Positions 22,899-30,585 of a stretch of DNA of 36,517 nucleotides are shown one piece after another. The notes beneath the pieces are model-generated. The model had not been told where the DNA came from and did not search any database. It saw nothing but the letters and a program-made list of their open reading frames with translations. Numbering within the stretch: position 1 is the first letter of the stretch; each line of letters begins with the position of its first letter. The position numbers and the translations under genes were made by a program. Origin of the DNA: Pseudomonadales bacterium (GTDB taxonomy: Bacteria; Pseudomonadota; Gammaproteobacteria; Pseudomonadales; Azotimanducaceae); the NCBI GenBank assembly GCA_022827905.1, contig JAJEIQ010000040.1, positions 1-36,517 of the forward strand. Reading direction: 5' to 3'.

Positions 22899-24668
22899 TT
22901 GGCATACGTAGGCGCGACCCCGACGGGCAGTGGAATTCCACGTCCGGAGGGAGAATTCGAAGGGCTGGCTGACGCGCTGGACTTTGCGGCGCGGGGGCAA
23001 ACCGGCTACAACTTCTACAGCGGCTCCGGCGAGCTGGACGCCGCGGTGCCCTATGCCCAGCTCCGCCAACAAGCCGTCGCCACCGCCCGCCGTCTGGCCC
23101 ACCTCGACCTGCCGCGCCACTCCAGGGTGGCCATCATTGCGGACACGGATCCGCTGTTTCATCGCTTCTTCTTTGCCTGTCAGTACGCTGGCCTGATTCC
23201 CGTGCCCATGCCCGCCGCCTTGCAAATGGGCGGTGGCGACGCCTATGTGGGCCAGATTCAACGCATGATGGAACGCTGCGGGGCCGCAGTGGCCGTGGCG
23301 CCGGACAGCTTTGTCGACCTGCTGCAAACCGCCGCTAAGCCGTTGGGCTTGGCCTTTGTCGGTGGCGAAGCGGATTTCGATGCATTGCCGCAAGCCACCG
23401 AGGCGCTGTCTCCGATGCGCGGCGATGAGCCCGCCTATCTCCAGTACACGTCCGGCAGCACCCGGTTTCCGCGCGGGGTGGAGATGTCCCAACGCGCCGT
23501 GCTGTGCAATCTTCGCGAAATTGGGGAGGTCGGCGCCCAACTGCGCGATGACGACCGGGTGGCATCCTGGTTGCCGTTCTACCACGACATGGGCTTGGTG
23601 GGATGCGTTCTAGTCCCCTTGGTCTACGCCCTGTCCGTGGATTACTTAAGCCCGCGCACATTCGCCATGCGCCCGCGGCTGTGGCTGAAGCTGATTTCCG
23701 AGAACCGCTGCACGTCGTCGTCGAGCCCGCCGTCCGGGTACGGCCTGTGCGCAACCCGGCTGCGGCTCTCCGATCGGGAGAAGTACGATCTCTCGTCTTG
23801 GCGCATTGCCTGTGTTGGCGCGGAGCGCATCAATCCGCGCCTCCTTGAGCGATTCAGCCAGGTGCTGGGCCCCGCCGGGTTCGACCCCAAGGCCTTTGTC
23901 GCCTGCTACGGCATGGCTGAATGTGGGCTGGCCATCAGTTTCGCACCTCTGGACAATGGCCTTGATGTGGACGTGGTGGACAAGGAGTCGATTAGCGCTT
24001 CCGGCTTTGCGAAGCCCGCAGCAGGCGCAAGCGGCGTCCTGAAGCTGGCCGATTGCGGGGCCGTTATGCCGAGCTACGAGTTTCGAATTTGCGATGATGA
24101 AGGCCGTGAAGTGGCGGAGCGTCACTGCGGACACATTTTTGTGCGTGGCCCGAGCGTCATGCGCGGCTACTTCAATGACGCCGAGGCAACGGCAGAGGTG
24201 TTGGATGATTCGGGTTGGTTGGACACCGGCGACATCGGTTACCGCATGGGTCGCCATCTGGTCGTCACCGCCCGCAGCAAGGACGTCATTATCGTCAATG
24301 GCCGCAACATCTGGCCCCAGGATCTGGAGCAGTTGGCGGAAAGCTCCCCGGGCGTTCGCATTGGCACCACAACCGCTTTTGAAGCCACTCGGCCGAATGG
24401 GGATCCGCTGGTCGTTCTGGTGGTGGAGAGCAAGCGAGCTGAACCCGATCTGCCAAGGCGCATCGAGTCCCTGGTGCGCGAGCATTTCGGCGTCACGTGC
24501 TACGTAGAGATCGCGCCGCCGCGGACCCTGCCGCGCACCTCCTCGGGCAAGCTCTCCCGAGTGACCGCCCGTGCTGGTTTCCTTGACCGGACCCATTGGG
24601 ATGAGGCCGGCAATCCCGCGCCGATGGCCGCACCCGTCGTGGAGAGCGCCCGGCTCGCCAACGGCTGA
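22899..24668 (+). CDS. Fatty acyl-AMP ligase / acyl-ACP synthetase (AasR-like)
   Basis: A 589-residue adenylating enzyme that activates a fatty acid with ATP and loads it on an acyl carrier protein. Motifs are LQYTSGSTRFPRGV (181-194, ATP loop), SWLPFYHDMGLVG, ACYGMAECGL, WLDTGDIGYR and a C-terminal PRTSSGKLSR with the catalytic Lys. The FxPRGV/H-D-MGL pattern is that of fatty acyl-AMP ligases rather than CoA ligases. TTG at 22899 is the first start after an in-frame TGA and lacks a clear Shine-Dalgarno. It opens an operon with SDR, ACP and SPT-like genes, the same four functions as the Caulobacter ceramide locus, where this enzyme charges the dedicated ACP. Confidence 0.9.
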   Translation: MAYVGATPTGSGIPRPEGEFEGLADALDFAARGQTGYNFYSGSGELDAAVPYAQLRQQAVATARRLAHLDLPRHSRVAIIADTDPLFHRFFFACQYAGLIPVPMPAALQMGGGDAYVGQIQRMMERCGAAVAVAPDSFVDLLQTAAKPLGLAFVGGEADFDALPQATEALSPMRGDEPAYLQYTSGSTRFPRGVEMSQRAVLCNLREIGEVGAQLRDDDRVASWLPFYHDMGLVGCVLVPLVYALSVDYLSPRTFAMRPRLWLKLISENRCTSSSSPPSGYGLCATRLRLSDREKYDLSSWRIACVGAERINPRLLERFSQVLGPAGFDPKAFVACYGMAECGLAISFAPLDNGLDVDVVDKESISASGFAKPAAGASGVLKLADCGAVMPSYEFRICDDEGREVAERHCGHIFVRGPSVMRGYFNDAEATAEVLDDSGWLDTGDIGYRMGRHLVVTARSKDVIIVNGRNIWPQDLEQLAESSPGVRIGTTTAFEATRPNGDPLVVLVVESKRAEPDLPRRIESLVREHFGVTCYVEIAPPRTLPRTSSGKLSRVTARAGFLDRTHWDEAGNPAPMAAPVVESARLANG

Positions 24669-24690
24669 AAGCCCTTTTCATCTTAGCTAT

Positions 24691-25602
24691 TTGAAATCGC
24701 CCACTGTCGCCGTCACCGGCCTGACCGGATTCATCGGCAGGCGTCTGGCGGTCAAGCTTGTGGCCGCGTCCATCGAGACGCGGGCCATCATCAGGAAACC
24801 CGCCGCCGCGTTGGACGCCCCCATCTCACCTTGGGTCGCTGGCTTGGACGATGTGGATGCGTTGACCGATGCGTTGGCCGGGGTGGACGCCGTCGTGCAT
24901 CTGGCTGGCACGGTGCGCGGCGCGCGGCCCCGGGACTTTGCGGCCGCGAACAGCAAGGCGGTCAACCATTTATGCGCTGCGGCCCTGCGCCAAGCCAAGC
25001 CGCCGGCCATGTTGCTGGTTTCGTCGCTGGCCGCCACCGAGCCGCAGCTTTCCGACCACGCGGCCAGCAAGCGGGCCGGCGAGCAGGCGCTGGCGGCGCA
25101 TCCGCAAATCGATTCGACCGTCATTCGCCCGCCCGCCGTTTACGGTCCGGGAGACCGTGAACTCACGCCACTGTTCCGCCTGATGCGGCGTGGTTGGATC
25201 CTAGTGCCCGGCAATCCCACGCAAAGGCTGTCCTTCCTCTACGTCGATGATTTGGCCGACGCCATCCTTTGCTGGCTGCAGGCGCCTCGAAGCTGCCGGG
25301 GGCGGCAGTTCAGCATCGACGATGGCGCCGAAGACGGCTACGATTGGCCCGCCATAGCGGCGGCGGTGGGTGCCCGCAGGACTCGGATCCTAGTGATTCC
25401 CACGCCCCTGTTGCAAGGAGTGGCCCAGGTGAACGTCGGTCTTTCGCAGCTCCTTGGCCGTGCGCCGATGCTGACGCCGGGCAAGGTTCGGGAACTTGGC
25501 CATGGTCGTTGGGTGGGCGGCGGCGATGACTTCGGCGCCGCCACCGGTTGGCGGCCAAGACACGATCTGGCCAGCGGACTTGAATTGACATTCAACACTT
25601 AA
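24691..25602 (+). CDS. Extended SDR / NAD-dependent epimerase family (CerR-like)
   Basis: A 303-residue Rossmann protein. TGLTGFIG (9-16) binds NAD(P), VVHLAGTVRG and RPPAVYGPGDRE are typical of extended SDRs. By position in the operon it corresponds to the NAD-epimerase homologue that acts as ceramide reductase in bacterial sphingolipid synthesis. An oddity: the catalytic YxxxK reads HAASK, so His123 replaces Tyr while Lys127 and Ser112 stay; the codon is CAC, one base from TAC. I start at TTG 24691, 22 bp after the ligase stop, because earlier in-frame codons overlap the ligase and match no family. No good Shine-Dalgarno; coupling is likely. Reduction of a 3-keto group is inferred from context. 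Confidence 0.82.
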   Translation: MKSPTVAVTGLTGFIGRRLAVKLVAASIETRAIIRKPAAALDAPISPWVAGLDDVDALTDALAGVDAVVHLAGTVRGARPRDFAAANSKAVNHLCAAALRQAKPPAMLLVSSLAATEPQLSDHAASKRAGEQALAAHPQIDSTVIRPPAVYGPGDRELTPLFRLMRRGWILVPGNPTQRLSFLYVDDLADAILCWLQAPRSCRGRQFSIDDGAEDGYDWPAIAAAVGARRTRILVIPTPLLQGVAQVNVGLSQLLGRAPMLTPGKVRELGHGRWVGGGDDFGAATGWRPRHDLASGLELTFNT

Positions 25603-25615
25603 AGACGGGAACGCG

Positions 25616-25852
25616 ATGGATAGTCCTCTTGAACTGGAATTGCGCGAACTGCTAGCCGGCATCACCGCACTGCCCCCCGACTTCACTGCGGATACGGATT
25701 TGCTGGATGCGCTGGCCCTCGAATCGGCGCAGATCATGGAGTTCGTCATGGAAGTGGAGGACCGCTTCGACATCATCATCGACCAGCGGCAACTGGCCGA
25801 GGTGCGCAACATCGCCCATTTGGCGGCCGTGGTCGGCAAGGCCGTGGCATGA
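25616..25852 (+). CDS. Acyl carrier protein (dedicated, AcpR-like)
   Basis: A 78-residue, strongly acidic carrier protein that holds an acyl chain on 4'-phosphopantetheine. The attachment Ser is Ser37 in LLDALALESAQIMEF, where the usual DSL is LES; helix III carries IIDQRQLAEVRNI. The fold and length are typical, but the sequence is far from housekeeping AcpP, which suits a pathway-specific ACP. GGGAA precedes the ATG. Its stop overlaps the next ATG (ATGA), so the ACP and the SPT-like enzyme are made together. It probably receives acyl-AMP from the first gene and presents acyl-ACP to the next enzyme. Confidence 0.92.
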   Translation: MDSPLELELRELLAGITALPPDFTADTDLLDALALESAQIMEFVMEVEDRFDIIIDQRQLAEVRNIAHLAAVVGKAVA

Positions 25853-27036
25853 GCCTGCTGGCCAAGTTTGCGGCGGTGGAGGAAGCCCGGCGCGGGTTGG
25901 GTGAGGCCGACCCCACCCGTACGGTGATCGAGCGTCTGGAATCCCCCACATTGGGCGTAATTAACGGTGCCCCCACCATTTTGGCGGGCACCAACAACTA
26001 CTTGGGGATGACCTTTGACGCGCAAGCGGTTGCAGCGGGCCGCGACGCCTTGACCCAGGCCGGCACCGGCACCACGGGATCACGCATGGCCAACGGCACC
26101 TACGCGGCCCATGTGGCGCTCGAAGCGGAGCTTGCGGACTTTTACGGCTATCCGGCGGCGGTGGTGTTCTCCACTGGGTATGCGGCCAATCTGGGCGCCT
26201 TGTCGGCGCTGCTCGGTGCCGGTGACGCGGTGCTGCTCGATGCCGATGCCCACGCCAGCCTGTTCGATGGCTGCCGCCTTTGCCCCGCCGATGTCTACAC
26301 CTTCCGGCACAACGATCCAGAAAGCTTGGACAAGCGCTTGAGGCGTCTCGGAGCGCGGGCGCAAAACGCCTTGGTGGTTGTCGAGGGCCTTTACGGCGTT
26401 CTCGGCGACCGTGCGCCGTTGGCCGACATCGCGGCGGTCAAGGATCGCCATGGCGCCTGCCTGCTGGTCGATGAGGCCCACTCCCTCGGCGTGGTCGGTG
26501 CCGAAGGGCGGGGTGTTGTGGAGGAGGCCGGCATCATGGATCAGGTTGACTTCGTGGTGGGCACGTTCAGCAAGAGTTTGGGCACCATGGGCGGCTTCTG
26601 CGCCAGCCGCCACGAGGAAGTGGCGCTGTTCCCCTATGCCAGCCGGCCCTACATGTTCACCGCCTCGCCGTCCCCGGCCACCATTGCTTGCACGCGCGCC
26701 GCCCTGCGGACGCTGCGCACCCGCCCGGAGCTTAAAGCTCGCCTATGGCGCAACGCCAACCGCTTGCACCAAGGGCTCTCCCAGCTTGGGGTGGACTTGG
26801 GCGAGGCCGCAAGCCCGGTCATGTCCGTGCGCCTGCAGCGAAGGGAAGATGCCCTGGCAGCGTGGAACGGCTTGCTGGCCGAGGGCGTTTACGTCAATCT
26901 GTTCCTACCCCCTGCGGCGCCGGGCGGCGGCAGCATGCTGCGCATGAGCGTTAGCGCCGCCCACACCGACGACCAGCTCGACCGCATCGTTGCCGCCTTG
27001 GCCAAGGTGATGAGGGCGCTTGGCGCATTGGCTTGA
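25849..27036 (+). CDS. spt: Serine palmitoyltransferase-like alpha-oxoamine synthase
   Basis: A 395-residue PLP enzyme that condenses an amino acid with an acyl thioester and releases CO2. Lys242 in GTFSKSLGTMGGF is the Schiff-base Lys; this FSKS-xGxxGGF form is that of serine palmitoyltransferase, whereas AONS and KBL have LGKA-type motifs. LVDEAHSLG (Asp208, His211) contacts the cofactor and DADAHASLFDG gives the stacking His135. GTTGSRMANGTYAAH also fits SPT. The ATG overlaps the ACP stop by 4 bp. With acyl-ACP ligase, SDR and ACP beside it, 3-ketosphinganine synthesis is the best call. Another amino acid (such as Ala, Gly or cysteate) cannot be excluded without structure comparison. Confidence 0.82.
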   Translation: MSLLAKFAAVEEARRGLGEADPTRTVIERLESPTLGVINGAPTILAGTNNYLGMTFDAQAVAAGRDALTQAGTGTTGSRMANGTYAAHVALEAELADFYGYPAAVVFSTGYAANLGALSALLGAGDAVLLDADAHASLFDGCRLCPADVYTFRHNDPESLDKRLRRLGARAQNALVVVEGLYGVLGDRAPLADIAAVKDRHGACLLVDEAHSLGVVGAEGRGVVEEAGIMDQVDFVVGTFSKSLGTMGGFCASRHEEVALFPYASRPYMFTASPSPATIACTRAALRTLRTRPELKARLWRNANRLHQGLSQLGVDLGEAASPVMSVRLQRREDALAAWNGLLAEGVYVNLFLPPAAPGGGSMLRMSVSAAHTDDQLDRIVAALAKVMRALGALA

Positions 27037-29675
27037 GTCCCGCCATGTGGCTCCCCCTCGCTACCGACGACGCCCCTGATCCGACGGAGGTGGGTGGCAA
27101 GGCCGCGTCACTGATTCGCCTGCGCCAAGCGGGTTTTGCGGTGCCCGAGGGCGTAGTGCTGAGCGCCGGGTTCTTTGCCCCGTGGCGGGCCGGCATCCGT
27201 GCGTCCCGAGAGTGGCATGAATTTCTGACGCTGCTAGGTCGCACCCTATCCGGACGCTCTCTTTCCGGGCACTGGGGCGCCGAGTTCGCCCAAGCCTGTG
27301 AACGGGTCAAGTCCTTGGCCAGGGACCTGCCGTGGACCGCTGACCAAAGGGCGCAAATTGAGGCTGTTCGGGCTCAAATGGGTGCGGGCTTGTTGGCGGT
27401 GCGTTCGTCATCGCCCGAAGAGGACTTGGCGGGGGCCTCGTTTGCGGGCCTCTATGAGACCTTCCTGGACGTGGCGCCCGCCGATTTGCCGGAAGCGGTC
27501 CGCGCCTGCTTTGGCGCCTGCCTTGACCAGCGGGTGATGCTGTACAAGGCGCGCATGAACATTGAACGCATTGAACCCGCCATCGCGGTGGTGGTGCAGA
27601 GGCGCTTGGCCGCCGATGTGTCCGGAGTGGCGTTTTCGATCAATCCCAAGACCAACGACTTTGATGAACTGCTCATCAACGCCAATTGGGGGTCCGGCGA
27701 CGCCTTGGTTGGGGGCGCCGTCACGCCGGACGCCGTCCTAGTCGATAAGGTGACCGGCGAAGTGGTCGACTACCGGCTCGGCAGCAAGGGCGACGATCGG
27801 CCAGCGCAGCGGTGCTTGGCCGACCCGGAACTTGCTTCGCTGGCTGAGACAGTGCAGCGGGTCGAGGCGCTCTTCGACTGTCCGGTGGACGTGGAGTGGG
27901 CCTTCGCCGAGGGGCGGCTCCAGCTACTGCAGGCGCGGCCCGTCACTGCCTACGTGCCCCTGCATCCTTCTCTGCTCACCGCGCTAGGCGAGCCTCGGCG
28001 TCTCTACATGGACGGCTACCTCACCGACGGCATCACCATGAGCAACGCCACGACGCCGATGACCGATGACGTGTTCAATCTGCTGTACCGGCTGTTCTGG
28101 CAGTGGCTGCTGAAGGTGCCGGCGACGCAACGCGATCACTCGAGCATGGGCGTACACACGCAAACCGGACGGCTCTACATCGACCTGTCCCTGTACATGC
28201 CCCTGCTCGACCGGGTGAAGCGTTTCGCCAAGGCGGCGGATGCCATGAACCCCATCGTGGCCCGCGTGCTCAGGTCTCCCGCCATGGACCGCTACCGCCT
28301 TGACCGAGTGCCTCGCCAAGTCCGCCTGGTGCGGCTGCTGGGTCATTTGCCCGCCATTCTATGGCGGGGCAGGCGGGCCATCGCGGCGTTGTCGGCGCCG
28401 CTGTTGCGTCCCCGCCGCTTTGATGCGGACTACGAGCGCGCCATCGCCGAGTTCACCGAATGGATCGAACGGCCGATCGACTACTCGCGTTCCGTCTCGG
28501 ACAGCCTGCAGGAAGCCATGGCACGTGCCGCCCAGACGATACTGAAGTCTTCCTATCCGGCGTTCTTGCAGTTCTACTTCCTGTCGTTCCGCATCAAGGC
28601 GCTCGCGGGATCCAAGTCCGCGGAACGGCGCGCTTGGGCGAACGCGATTCTCGGCAGCCAAGGGGACGATCTCGTGTTGCGCATGGGGCTGGCGATCTAC
28701 GACCTGGCCCAATTGCTGCCGATTGCGGAGTTTGAGGACATCGACGGCTTGGCGGCGAAGCTTCGGCGGCGCGACCTGCCGCCTGCTTTCCTGGCGGGCT
28801 GGGACGACTTCGTGCGCCGCTTCGGATGCCGCGGGCCGCTCGAAATGGAGCTTGCCAACCCCAAGTTCGGGGAGGCCCCGGAACTGGCGCTGCGGCAAAT
28901 GGCTTCGCTGGTTAGGGGTGGCGAGGCCTTCAATCCCCATGACATGGTGCGCCGGCGAGCGGCGCAACGGGAGCAAGCCTACCGCAGCCTGATGGCGGCG
29001 CTGCCGCCGCGCAAGGCCCAGCGCTTGCGCAGATACTACGCCAAGGCCAGCCGCTACGCCGCCTCAAGGGAGCTGTTCAAGCACCACATCATGCAGGTGT
29101 ACGAGCGGGTGCGCCGGCTGCTGCTGCACCGCGCCGATGCCTTCGTTCAAGCCGGGCGGCTCGACCGCCCCGAGCAGATATTCGAGCTGTGGGTCGAGGA
29201 CGTGGACCGGGCGACCGTAGATCCGGCGTTTGACCTGCGCGATTGCGTTGAGGCGCGCGGCGCCTTTGCCCGCAAGCTCGCCGCCCACGTGCGTGCCTTT
29301 CCAATGTTCATCGACTCCCGAGGGCGCAGGGTCCATCCGCCCGTTGACGACCCACCGGGCGTTCTGACCGGAGCGCCGATTTCACCGGGCGTCGCCCGTG
29401 GGCCGGTGAAGCTGTTGGCCGACCCATCCGAGAAGCCGGTTTTGCCGGGCGATGTCCTGGTGGCGGTGACCACGGATCCCGGCTGGACGCCGGTGTTCAT
29501 CAACGCCGCTGCGGTCGTGCTCGAGGTTGGCGGCGAGCTGCAGCACGGCGCGTTGGTGGCCCGGGAGTACGGCAAGCCCTGCGTGAGCGGCATTGTGGAC
29601 GTGACCGCCCGGTTCCAGGACGGGCAGCAGGTGGAGGTGGACGGCGACACCGGCAGGGTCCGTCTGCTGAGTTAA
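27033..29675 (+). CDS. PEP synthase/rifampin phosphotransferase/PigC-like ATP-dependent enzyme
   Basis: An 880-residue three-part enzyme. The N-terminal ATP-grasp domain has VGGKAASLIRLRQAGFAVP, VRSSSPEEDLAGASFAG, NANWGSGDALVGG and VEWAFAEGRLQLLQARPVT (about 21-308). A variable middle domain (about 310-760) has no match I recognise. The C-terminal swivelling domain has TDPGWTPVFINAAAVVLEVG and His838 in GGELQHGALVARE, the phosphohistidine site. This is the layout of rifampin phosphotransferase (about 867 residues) and of PigC, which condenses pyrroles in prodigiosin synthesis. TTG at 27033 overlaps the SPT stop as TTGA; ATG 27045 is the alternative. Coupling to the sphingolipid-type genes suggests phosphorylation or ligation of their product, an undescribed role. 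Confidence 0.85.
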   Translation: MSPAMWLPLATDDAPDPTEVGGKAASLIRLRQAGFAVPEGVVLSAGFFAPWRAGIRASREWHEFLTLLGRTLSGRSLSGHWGAEFAQACERVKSLARDLPWTADQRAQIEAVRAQMGAGLLAVRSSSPEEDLAGASFAGLYETFLDVAPADLPEAVRACFGACLDQRVMLYKARMNIERIEPAIAVVVQRRLAADVSGVAFSINPKTNDFDELLINANWGSGDALVGGAVTPDAVLVDKVTGEVVDYRLGSKGDDRPAQRCLADPELASLAETVQRVEALFDCPVDVEWAFAEGRLQLLQARPVTAYVPLHPSLLTALGEPRRLYMDGYLTDGITMSNATTPMTDDVFNLLYRLFWQWLLKVPATQRDHSSMGVHTQTGRLYIDLSLYMPLLDRVKRFAKAADAMNPIVARVLRSPAMDRYRLDRVPRQVRLVRLLGHLPAILWRGRRAIAALSAPLLRPRRFDADYERAIAEFTEWIERPIDYSRSVSDSLQEAMARAAQTILKSSYPAFLQFYFLSFRIKALAGSKSAERRAWANAILGSQGDDLVLRMGLAIYDLAQLLPIAEFEDIDGLAAKLRRRDLPPAFLAGWDDFVRRFGCRGPLEMELANPKFGEAPELALRQMASLVRGGEAFNPHDMVRRRAAQREQAYRSLMAALPPRKAQRLRRYYAKASRYAASRELFKHHIMQVYERVRRLLLHRADAFVQAGRLDRPEQIFELWVEDVDRATVDPAFDLRDCVEARGAFARKLAAHVRAFPMFIDSRGRRVHPPVDDPPGVLTGAPISPGVARGPVKLLADPSEKPVLPGDVLVAVTTDPGWTPVFINAAAVVLEVGGELQHGALVAREYGKPCVSGIVDVTARFQDGQQVEVDGDTGRVRLLS

Positions 29676-29712
29676 ACTGCCCGCTTCATGTTTGCCGTTG
29701 GAATGCAAGCCG

Positions 29713-30585
29713 ATGCCGAAAAAGCGAGCCGCCTTCATTGGCCTGGGGGTAATGGGGTATCCAATGGCCGGGCACTTGGCCCGCGCCGGCTGGGGGATGC
29801 GGGTTTACAACCGTACTGCGGAGCGGGCTCGGCAGTGGGTGCAGGAACACGGCGGCGAATGCGCAAGCTCGCCCCAGGAGGCCGCTGCCGGGGCTGATTT
29901 GGCGTTCGTCTGCGTGGGCAATGACGATGACGTTCGCAGCGTTTGCCTGACCGAGACTGGTGCCTTGAGCGGCATGGCCTCAGGCAGCGTCCTAGTGGAT
30001 CACACCACCGTTTCCGCCGAAGTCGCACGGGAGCTGGCTACCGCCGCCAGCCGGCAGGGCGTCGGCTTCGTGGACGCCCCGGTGTCCGGTGGCCAAGCCG
30101 GGGCGGAGAACGGCCAACTCACCATCATGGCCGGCGGTGCCGCCGCCGACTACGAACGGGCCCTGCCGGCCATGGATTGCTACGCCCGCTTCGTTCGCCT
30201 GATGGGACCGGCGGGCGCCGGACAGCTCACCAAGATGGTGAATCAGATCTGCATCGCCGGCGTTCTGCAGGGCTTGAGCGAAGGCATCGACTTCGCCCAA
30301 CGGGCAGGGCTCGATGCCGGCGCCGTTGTGGAGGTCATCGCCAAGGGTGCCGCCCAGTCCTGGCAAATGGAGAACCGGGCGCACACCATGGCGGCGGGTG
30401 AGTTCGACTTCGGCTTTGCCGTGCAGTGGATGCGCAAGGACCTCGACATTGTGCTGCGCACCGGACGCGCCTTGGGTGCGAGACTGCCGCTAGCGGCCTT
30501 GGTTGACCAGTTCTACGCGGATGTGGAAGCCAAGGGCGGCAGCCGCTGGGACACCTCCAGCCTCATTGCACGGCTTAGGGACTGA
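29713..30585 (+). CDS. NAD(P)-dependent beta-hydroxyacid dehydrogenase (3-hydroxyisobutyrate dehydrogenase-like)
   Basis: A 290-residue enzyme of the beta-HAD family, which interconverts 3-hydroxyacids and semialdehydes. The N-terminal Rossmann motif FIGLGVMGYPMAGHLARAG, substrate-loop DAPVSGGQAGAENGQLTIM and catalytic Lys in GQLTKMVNQ are all present; WMRKDLDIVL near the end is also typical. I start at ATG 29713; seven codons upstream to TTG 29692 add nothing conserved. It lies 38 bp after the phospho-His enzyme on the same strand and may be read with it. 3-Hydroxyisobutyrate, tartronate semialdehyde and related substrates cannot be told apart by eye. A 20-bp inverted repeat follows the gene. 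Confidence 0.9.
   Translation: MPKKRAAFIGLGVMGYPMAGHLARAGWGMRVYNRTAERARQWVQEHGGECASSPQEAAAGADLAFVCVGNDDDVRSVCLTETGALSGMASGSVLVDHTTVSAEVARELATAASRQGVGFVDAPVSGGQAGAENGQLTIMAGGAAADYERALPAMDCYARFVRLMGPAGAGQLTKMVNQICIAGVLQGLSEGIDFAQRAGLDAGAVVEVIAKGAAQSWQMENRAHTMAAGEFDFGFAVQWMRKDLDIVLRTGRALGARLPLAALVDQFYADVEAKGGSRWDTSSLIARLRD

Follow-up and report, generated by a model that had tools for sequence, protein, structure and literature searches.

A predicted small-molecule dikinase gene follows the ceramide core genes in a single clade of Azotimanducaceae

Background

In Caulobacter crescentus, the genes for the fatty acyl ligase, CerR, the acyl carrier protein (ACP) and serine palmitoyltransferase (SPT) lie together in the region CC_1152-CC_1168 (excerpts of PMC11324152), and the same four lie together in the stretch analysed here, a contig of 36,517 nt (JAJEIQ010000040.1) from the Pseudomonadales bacterium assembly GCA_022827905.1 (Azotimanducaceae), henceforth called the window. 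Candidates for the ceramide synthase (CerS), the lipid kinase, the NTP transferases, a flippase-like protein and LptF2/G2 of the Caulobacter region (as excerpted in PMC11324152) are also present in the window genome. In contrast to the Caulobacter region, the window genome splits these genes over three loci, and SPT is followed by a dikinase and a reductase gene.

PigC and RedH are prodigiosin ligases, and to our knowledge no lipid substrate is known for the superfamily of the RPH (rifampin phosphotransferase) type. Compared through NCBIfam models only, PigC and RedH have their domain order in common with the dikinase of the window, but the dikinase reaches about one sixth of their cut-offs and no partner-forming genes were recognised. 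With RPH (structures 5fbs and 5hv1; PMC4844700, in part) it agrees in domain order, ATP-site residues, the R-E-x-x-K phosphotransfer residues and the catalytic His, but it scores 268 bits against a family cut-off of 999, the first half of its middle domain is unmatched, and Q instead of T precedes the catalytic His. The phenolic dikinases HpeHI, CreHI and PpsAB (PMC12167813, in part), likened here by description, belong to the same superfamily and convert ATP to AMP on small hydroxylated substrates; they are two-component enzymes, whereas the dikinase of the window is a single chain.

Results

Genes of the unit

The genes of the unit are as follows (genomes, contigs and loci other than the window are given by running labels G, C and L, the window genome being G000).

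22899..24668, + strand, fatty acyl-AMP ligase / acyl-ACP synthetase (AasR-like); PF00501; NF006624 680 bits, above the cut-off of 600
24571..25602 (open reading frame as listed), + strand, CerR-like SDR of the NAD-epimerase type; PF01370 at 1e-23, residues 46-248
25616..25852, + strand, dedicated ACP (AcpR-like); PF00550; 4-nt overlap with the SPT gene
25849..27036, + strand, SPT; NF047599 569 bits, above the curated NCBI cut-off of 500
27045..29675, + strand, predicted RPH/PigC-type small-molecule dikinase, 876 aa; PF01326 and PF00391; ATP-grasp domain, acceptor-binding middle domain, C-terminal phospho-His swivel domain
29692..30585 (start uncertain), + strand, beta-hydroxyacid dehydrogenase (HIBADH / tartronate-semialdehyde-reductase-like); PF03446 and PF14833; last gene of the unit

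The original prediction had described a five-gene unit in which a Caulobacter-type ceramide core, in collinear order, is joined to the dikinase. All five open reading frames are real and lie where it had placed them, their identities being backed by Pfam and NCBIfam matches; the sixth gene, the reductase at 29692-30585, was missing from that account. For the CerR-like SDR, whose best NCBIfam model is OleD-like at a score far below cut-off, translation probably starts beyond the end of the ligase gene at 24668, as the SDR domain begins near 24700. The collinearity of the core was borne out in the class, where a search of 369 genomes at E <= 1e-100 gave 21 with an SPT match, the window's included: ligase, CerR, ACP and SPT are contiguous in this order at 16 of the 20 other loci, the remaining four being cut by a contig end (1), interrupted (1) or limited to ACP-SPT (2). 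Caulobacter has the same gene set (PMC11324152, in part). Judged by gene content and order, the aasR-cerR-acpR-spt genes of the window are an ordinary proteobacterial ceramide core.

A second type of SPT locus was observed at L143, L145, L081 and L085, with ACP-SPT next to ELM1-like and LptF/G genes; the stretches contain neither ligase nor CerR, and an ABC transporter accompanies SPT at L143, L145 and L081.

Junction between SPT and dikinase

The proposed fusion of the two genes by a TTGA overlap did not hold, the TTG at 27033 being merely the first in-frame start and the conserved ATG at 27045 lying past the SPT stop. Since ATGTGGCT is kept at the corresponding place in all four species with the dikinase gene, the start was taken as ATG 27045, which likely gives a protein of 876 aa (880 aa if counted from TTG 27033). 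The ATG follows the SPT stop after 8 nt in the window and after 17 nt in G007 and G008, so by these predicted ends the gene is close to SPT without overlap. In G002, the two genes are on separate contigs, SPT ending 76 nt short of one contig end and the dikinase starting at base 93 of the other contig. Because the same 23 nt recur as inverted repeats at both contig ends (end of L075 and start of L035; C61 and C157), an inserted element likely separates the two genes in this genome.

Architecture and family of the dikinase

In 880-aa numbering, the PF01326 ATP-binding domain covers residues 19-306 and the PF00391 His domain residues 805-874, with nothing after it. This is the layout of RPH, in which the His domain is C-terminal, and not that of PEP synthase and PPDK, in which the pyruvate-binding domain takes this place (PMC4844700, in part). 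The protein aligns with the RPH structures 5fbs and 5hv1 at both ends (E 9e-60 with the single sequence, 6e-108 with a profile), and all eight RPH functional residues checked are identical in the alignment: K22, R117, T136, E297, R666, E667, K670 and H825 of RPH correspond to K19, R120, T139, E284, R675, E676, K679 and H834 of the dikinase (876-aa numbering; roles of the residues and swivel mechanism of the His domain according to PMC4844700, in part). Across a 10-sequence alignment of the family, six of the eight are invariant and E676 nearly so; T139, the counterpart of the T136 that RPH requires for transfer to rifampin (same source), is replaced by serine in G008 and G002. Taken together, the residues suggest that the dikinase is likely active.

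Family models led to the same type of enzyme without assigning it to a named family. One of the PRK06241 models, which carry the name phosphoenolpyruvate synthase, is matched end to end (17-879 to 16-889 of 891), and the His domain comes at the end, the order seen in RPH. The whole protein scored 267.6 bits with the rph equivalog NF041857 (cut-off 999) and 175 with a second RPH model, 229.9 and 231.1 bits with the PigC and RedH models NF052631 and NF052632 (cut-offs 1300 and 1350), and 226 bits with the PEP synthase model TIGR01418 (cut-off 740). Because it thus stays below the cut-offs of RPH, PigC, RedH and PEP synthase, the dikinase is, on sequence grounds, best regarded as an as yet unnamed subfamily within the superfamily of small-molecule dikinases.

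The middle domain alone, searched against NCBIfam at E up to 1, matched models of PRK06241 (58.8 bits at best), RPH (33.8 and 16.8), RedH (26.1) and PigC (18.6), plus three more weakly; TIGR01418 and NF005057, the canonical PpsA models that the whole protein matches, were absent at this threshold. Its second half is matched by RPH, RedH and PigC, and one PRK06241 model spans most of it; no solved structure was matched by the middle domain at E < 0.1. The comparison of this domain had been set beforehand as a check, with a PEP-synthase-type domain named as counter-evidence; what was found were matches of the RPH type and none to the canonical PpsA models. Domain order, residues and family models thus agree with the original prediction of an ATP-grasp/phospho-His enzyme of the RPH/PigC type, and a canonical PEP synthase was rejected on the C-terminal His domain, the TIGR01418 score and the middle-domain matches.

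Distribution and co-occurrence with SPT

The SPT-linked dikinase was found in one clade of four species (the window genome, G002, G007 and G008). SPT, ligase and CerR are present and the dikinase is absent in G001, G006 and G005; there was no dikinase match at E <= 1e-3 in G001 and G006, and G005 carries more distant dikinase-like genes elsewhere in its genome. Among 206 genomes of the family (one per species, many incomplete), the dikinase subfamily occurs in 37 (E <= 1e-90) and SPT in 36 (E <= 1e-100); both occur together in 5, as compared to 6.5 expected (Fisher p 0.63, with thresholds chosen by the analyst and genomes that are not independent). Four of these five form the single clade, and the fifth, G012, has the genes on different contigs. 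Neighbourhoods were retrieved for 28 of the 37 genomes, with a called dikinase gene at 28 of 29 loci (G938 was not returned) and several loci shortened by contig ends; SPT lies within 8.5 kb of the dikinase at 3 of these 28 loci, and the nine dikinase genomes outside the survey had no SPT match at E <= 1e-100. No partner gene common to the dikinase relatives was found at the family loci examined, the neighbours including an EF-G-like gene behind glutamate synthase (by eye), a His-phosphatase, PhyH, an aldehyde dehydrogenase, an AMP-binding enzyme and a nitroreductase.

Beyond the family, no PPDK-like match at E <= 1e-6 was obtained at the other 20 SPT loci of the class, in stretches of up to 20 kb. 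With two candidates scored per genome, 2 of 390 genomes were retrieved in the order (E <= 1e-90) and 1 of 398 in a profile search of the phylum (E <= 1e-100), each count including the window's. Plasmid records matching the dikinase numbered 311, with identities all under 60% among the 30 matches listed. A literature search, with subscription titles mostly outside it, gave no relevant paper that pairs these genes among those listed; a diatom proteomics paper mentions both terms. The conserved neighbourhood with SPT that the original prediction had named as a check is therefore confined to one four-species clade, and linkage to SPT or co-occurrence beyond this clade, taken as the test of pathway membership, was not found in the 206 family genomes and the 20 class loci. 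As far as the sequences tell, SPT and the dikinase are genuinely paired, but in this clade alone and with no broader support.

Two further arrangements were observed. In G003, G025 and G816 (L038:10106-13356, L039:2892-6191, L163:3238-3828), a dikinase of 51-52% identity is encoded behind the gene for a histidine-phosphatase-like protein of about 196-198 aa (Pfam was run on that of G003 only), a possible kinase/phosphatase pair. At L083:539-6923 in another family of the order (G044:C13), a different PPDK-like protein of 827 aa scores 309 and 307 bits with the RedH and PigC models and 252 with RPH, all below cut-off. Its gene comes after an FMO-like gene and precedes those of a DAGK-type kinase, c8 and an ELM1-like protein, with SPT some 13 kb away. 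In the dikinase tree the protein forms the outgroup, distant from the dikinase of the window; it may be an independently arisen link between an enzyme of this kind and a sphingolipid region.

Selection on and origin of the dikinase

Three comparisons among three species gave dN/dS of 0.16-0.21 for the dikinase at dS 0.5-0.7, and 0.07-0.16 for ligase, CerR, ACP and SPT. The dikinase is under purifying selection, as expected of a useful operon member. In the SPT and ligase trees, the four carriers form one clade (100/99) with G001 and G006 as sister, and G005 falls outside both with weaker support (88/91 and 81/81). As the carriers are one clade and the sister pair and G005 are without the gene, it was probably gained once, in the ancestor of the four species, a simpler history than one with at least two losses. 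The dikinase tree, from which G002 (82% identical to the window's protein) was left out, places G345 and G926, members of another genus, nearest to the carriers (93/91, a fork without a star) and groups the copy of the congener G003 with G012, G025 and G816 (100/100). The gene was likely acquired by transfer within the family, given that its nearest copies are those of the other genus and not that of the congener.

Downstream reductase

The best NCBIfam model of the reductase is tartronate semialdehyde reductase (TIGR01505, 218 bits, below the cut-off of 341). Dikinase and reductase are adjacent in all four carriers. The dikinase is placed between SPT and the reductase; in G001, where the dikinase is absent, the reductase comes immediately after SPT, and G006 has neither gene at SPT. 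The reductase, which thus stays next to SPT in G001, could conceivably supply glycerate specifically for head groups.

Other sphingolipid loci of the genome

Candidates for the rest of a Caulobacter-type phosphosphingolipid pathway were found at two further loci of the window genome.

Locus B (G000:C65), flippase-like protein (weak Pfam match, below cut-off), c8 (no Pfam match), CDP-alcohol phosphatidyltransferase, metallophosphoesterase-like protein, second LptF/LptG pair, LptA-like protein
Locus C (G000:C64), GNAT protein, two NTP transferases, DAGK-type kinase, Asp/Arg hydroxylase-type protein, GMC oxidoreductase

The GNAT protein (PF00583, 29.4 bits, cut-off 20.7) belongs to a family present at 17 of the 32 sphingolipid-related loci examined and located beside an NTP transferase in the four inspected; this recurrence and neighbourhood make it a ceramide synthase candidate. 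Two genes away lies the DAGK-type kinase, which matches above the Pfam cut-off in the window genome, G001, G002, G004, G006, G007 and G008, at locus C in all but G002. G005, without the dikinase, has a sole PF00781 match below cut-off and no DAGK gene in its sphingolipid cluster, so that by these matches the kinase is not universal among these genomes. Many parts of loci B and C are clustered with SPT in G005, a genome of the same genus, and G001 and G006 keep both further loci. A G005 gene, X292, was discarded as a sphingolipid gene, being antisense to a metallophosphoesterase gene. LptF/G genes number four in the window genome and two in its SPT-less congener G003, but four also in G004 without detected SPT and only two in the SPT genomes G018, G021 and G023. 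In the congener G004 (L127, L128), loci B and C are present and an SPT match is absent from the assembly. A replacement of the ceramide kinase by the dikinase was weakened as an idea by the DAGK-type kinase in these seven genomes; by its family match, a lipid-kinase candidate exists in the window genome besides the dikinase.

Discussion

Gene identities, conserved catalytic residues, purifying selection and distribution are read directly from the sequences; from these, catalysis, substrate class, co-transcription, a single gain and transfer may be proposed. In the core, the acyl-AMP ligase would load a fatty acid onto the dedicated ACP, SPT would condense the ACP-bound fatty acid with serine to 3-ketosphinganine, and CerR would reduce the ketone, in the Caulobacter model once acylation has taken place (step order as in PMC11087976, in part). 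The two other loci, with candidate genes for ceramide synthase, lipid kinase, head groups and LptF2/G2 export, would supply the later steps. In the dikinase, the C-terminal His would take phosphate from ATP in the ATP-grasp domain, swivel, and pass it to a hydroxyl (or enol/phenol) in the middle domain, leaving AMP and Pi. We hold with about even confidence that this enzyme was gained once by an otherwise ordinary operon and that its substrate lies most likely outside the core sphingolipid pathway. The substrate would be a hydroxylated small molecule and its conversion not a core sphingolipid step; as it is taken to lie outside that pathway, co-transcription with SPT would be mainly positional. 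Against an independent substrate stand the 8-17 nt between SPT and the dikinase in three species, the purifying selection and the place of the gene inside the unit, between SPT and the reductase. Weighing on the same side, none of the varied neighbours in other genomes hints at a substrate, and the T139 position holds serine in G008 and G002.

The short spacing and the purifying selection, together with the retained phosphotransfer residues and an alcohol acceptor that suits RPH chemistry (PMC4844700, in part), favour recruitment of the dikinase, which would phosphorylate sphingoid bases or ceramide, or a hydroxyl group carried by these, to give a lineage-specific phosphosphingolipid besides the standard ones. 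We consider this less likely than not: the window genome already has a DAGK-type kinase gene two genes away from that of its putative ceramide synthase, the congeners G001 and G006 have the same sphingolipid genes without the dikinase, SPT co-occurrence in the family shows no excess, and the genes of G002 are on different contigs with a 23-nt inverted repeat at the ends that suggests an insertion between them. Of the original placement of the dikinase in the sphingolipid route, the pairing stood, and a wider linkage did not, with a single clade and a DAGK-type kinase already present. Spelled out as a phospho-His dikinase recruited to a sphingolipid operon, phosphorylating with conversion of ATP to AMP and Pi, unrelated to the DAGK type and adding an extra phosphosphingolipid in one clade, the proposal is likewise less likely than not.

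A two-step branch of reductase and dikinase, from tartronate semialdehyde over glycerate to 2-phosphoglycerate for a CpgD-type cytidylyltransferase and a ceramide phosphoglycerate head group, appears improbable. It would account for the adjacency of both genes in all four carriers, the best model of the reductase and the two NTP transferases at locus C, and CpgD prefers D-2-phosphoglycerate in vitro, with a dedicated phosphoglycerate source left open in the excerpts of PMC12275187; but the reductase stays at 218 bits against 341, G001 has SPT-reductase without dikinase and G006 neither gene there, and glycolysis already yields 2-phosphoglycerate. Even less credit is due to a PigC-type enzyme condensing the long-chain aminoketone with a partner, an idea of the original prediction that gained no specific support. 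The domain order is that of the PigC/RedH models, and a fatty-acid-activating ligase, an ACP and a PLP enzyme are alongside, but the scores of 230 and 231 bits face cut-offs of 1300 and 1350, next to 268 and 175 for the RPH models, and no partner-forming genes were recognised among the six genes of the unit; for the middle domain, the bits are 33.8 and 16.8 with RPH, 26.1 with RedH and 18.6 with PigC, the RPH-RedH difference being small. Hardly any weight falls on a true PEP synthase supplying PEP, for which several matched NCBIfam models are named, given a C-terminal His domain with nothing after it (layout in PMC4844700, in part) and 226 of 740 bits for TIGR01418.

Should the dikinase act on sphingolipids, it would represent a second, unrelated bacterial route to phosphosphingolipids. 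If it does not, the case is a warning, as judging by operon position alone would have given a lipid role to a gene whose family shows no association with genes for sphingolipids. In addition, a Caulobacter-type phosphosphingolipid gene set, spread over three loci, has come to light in a gammaproteobacterial family.
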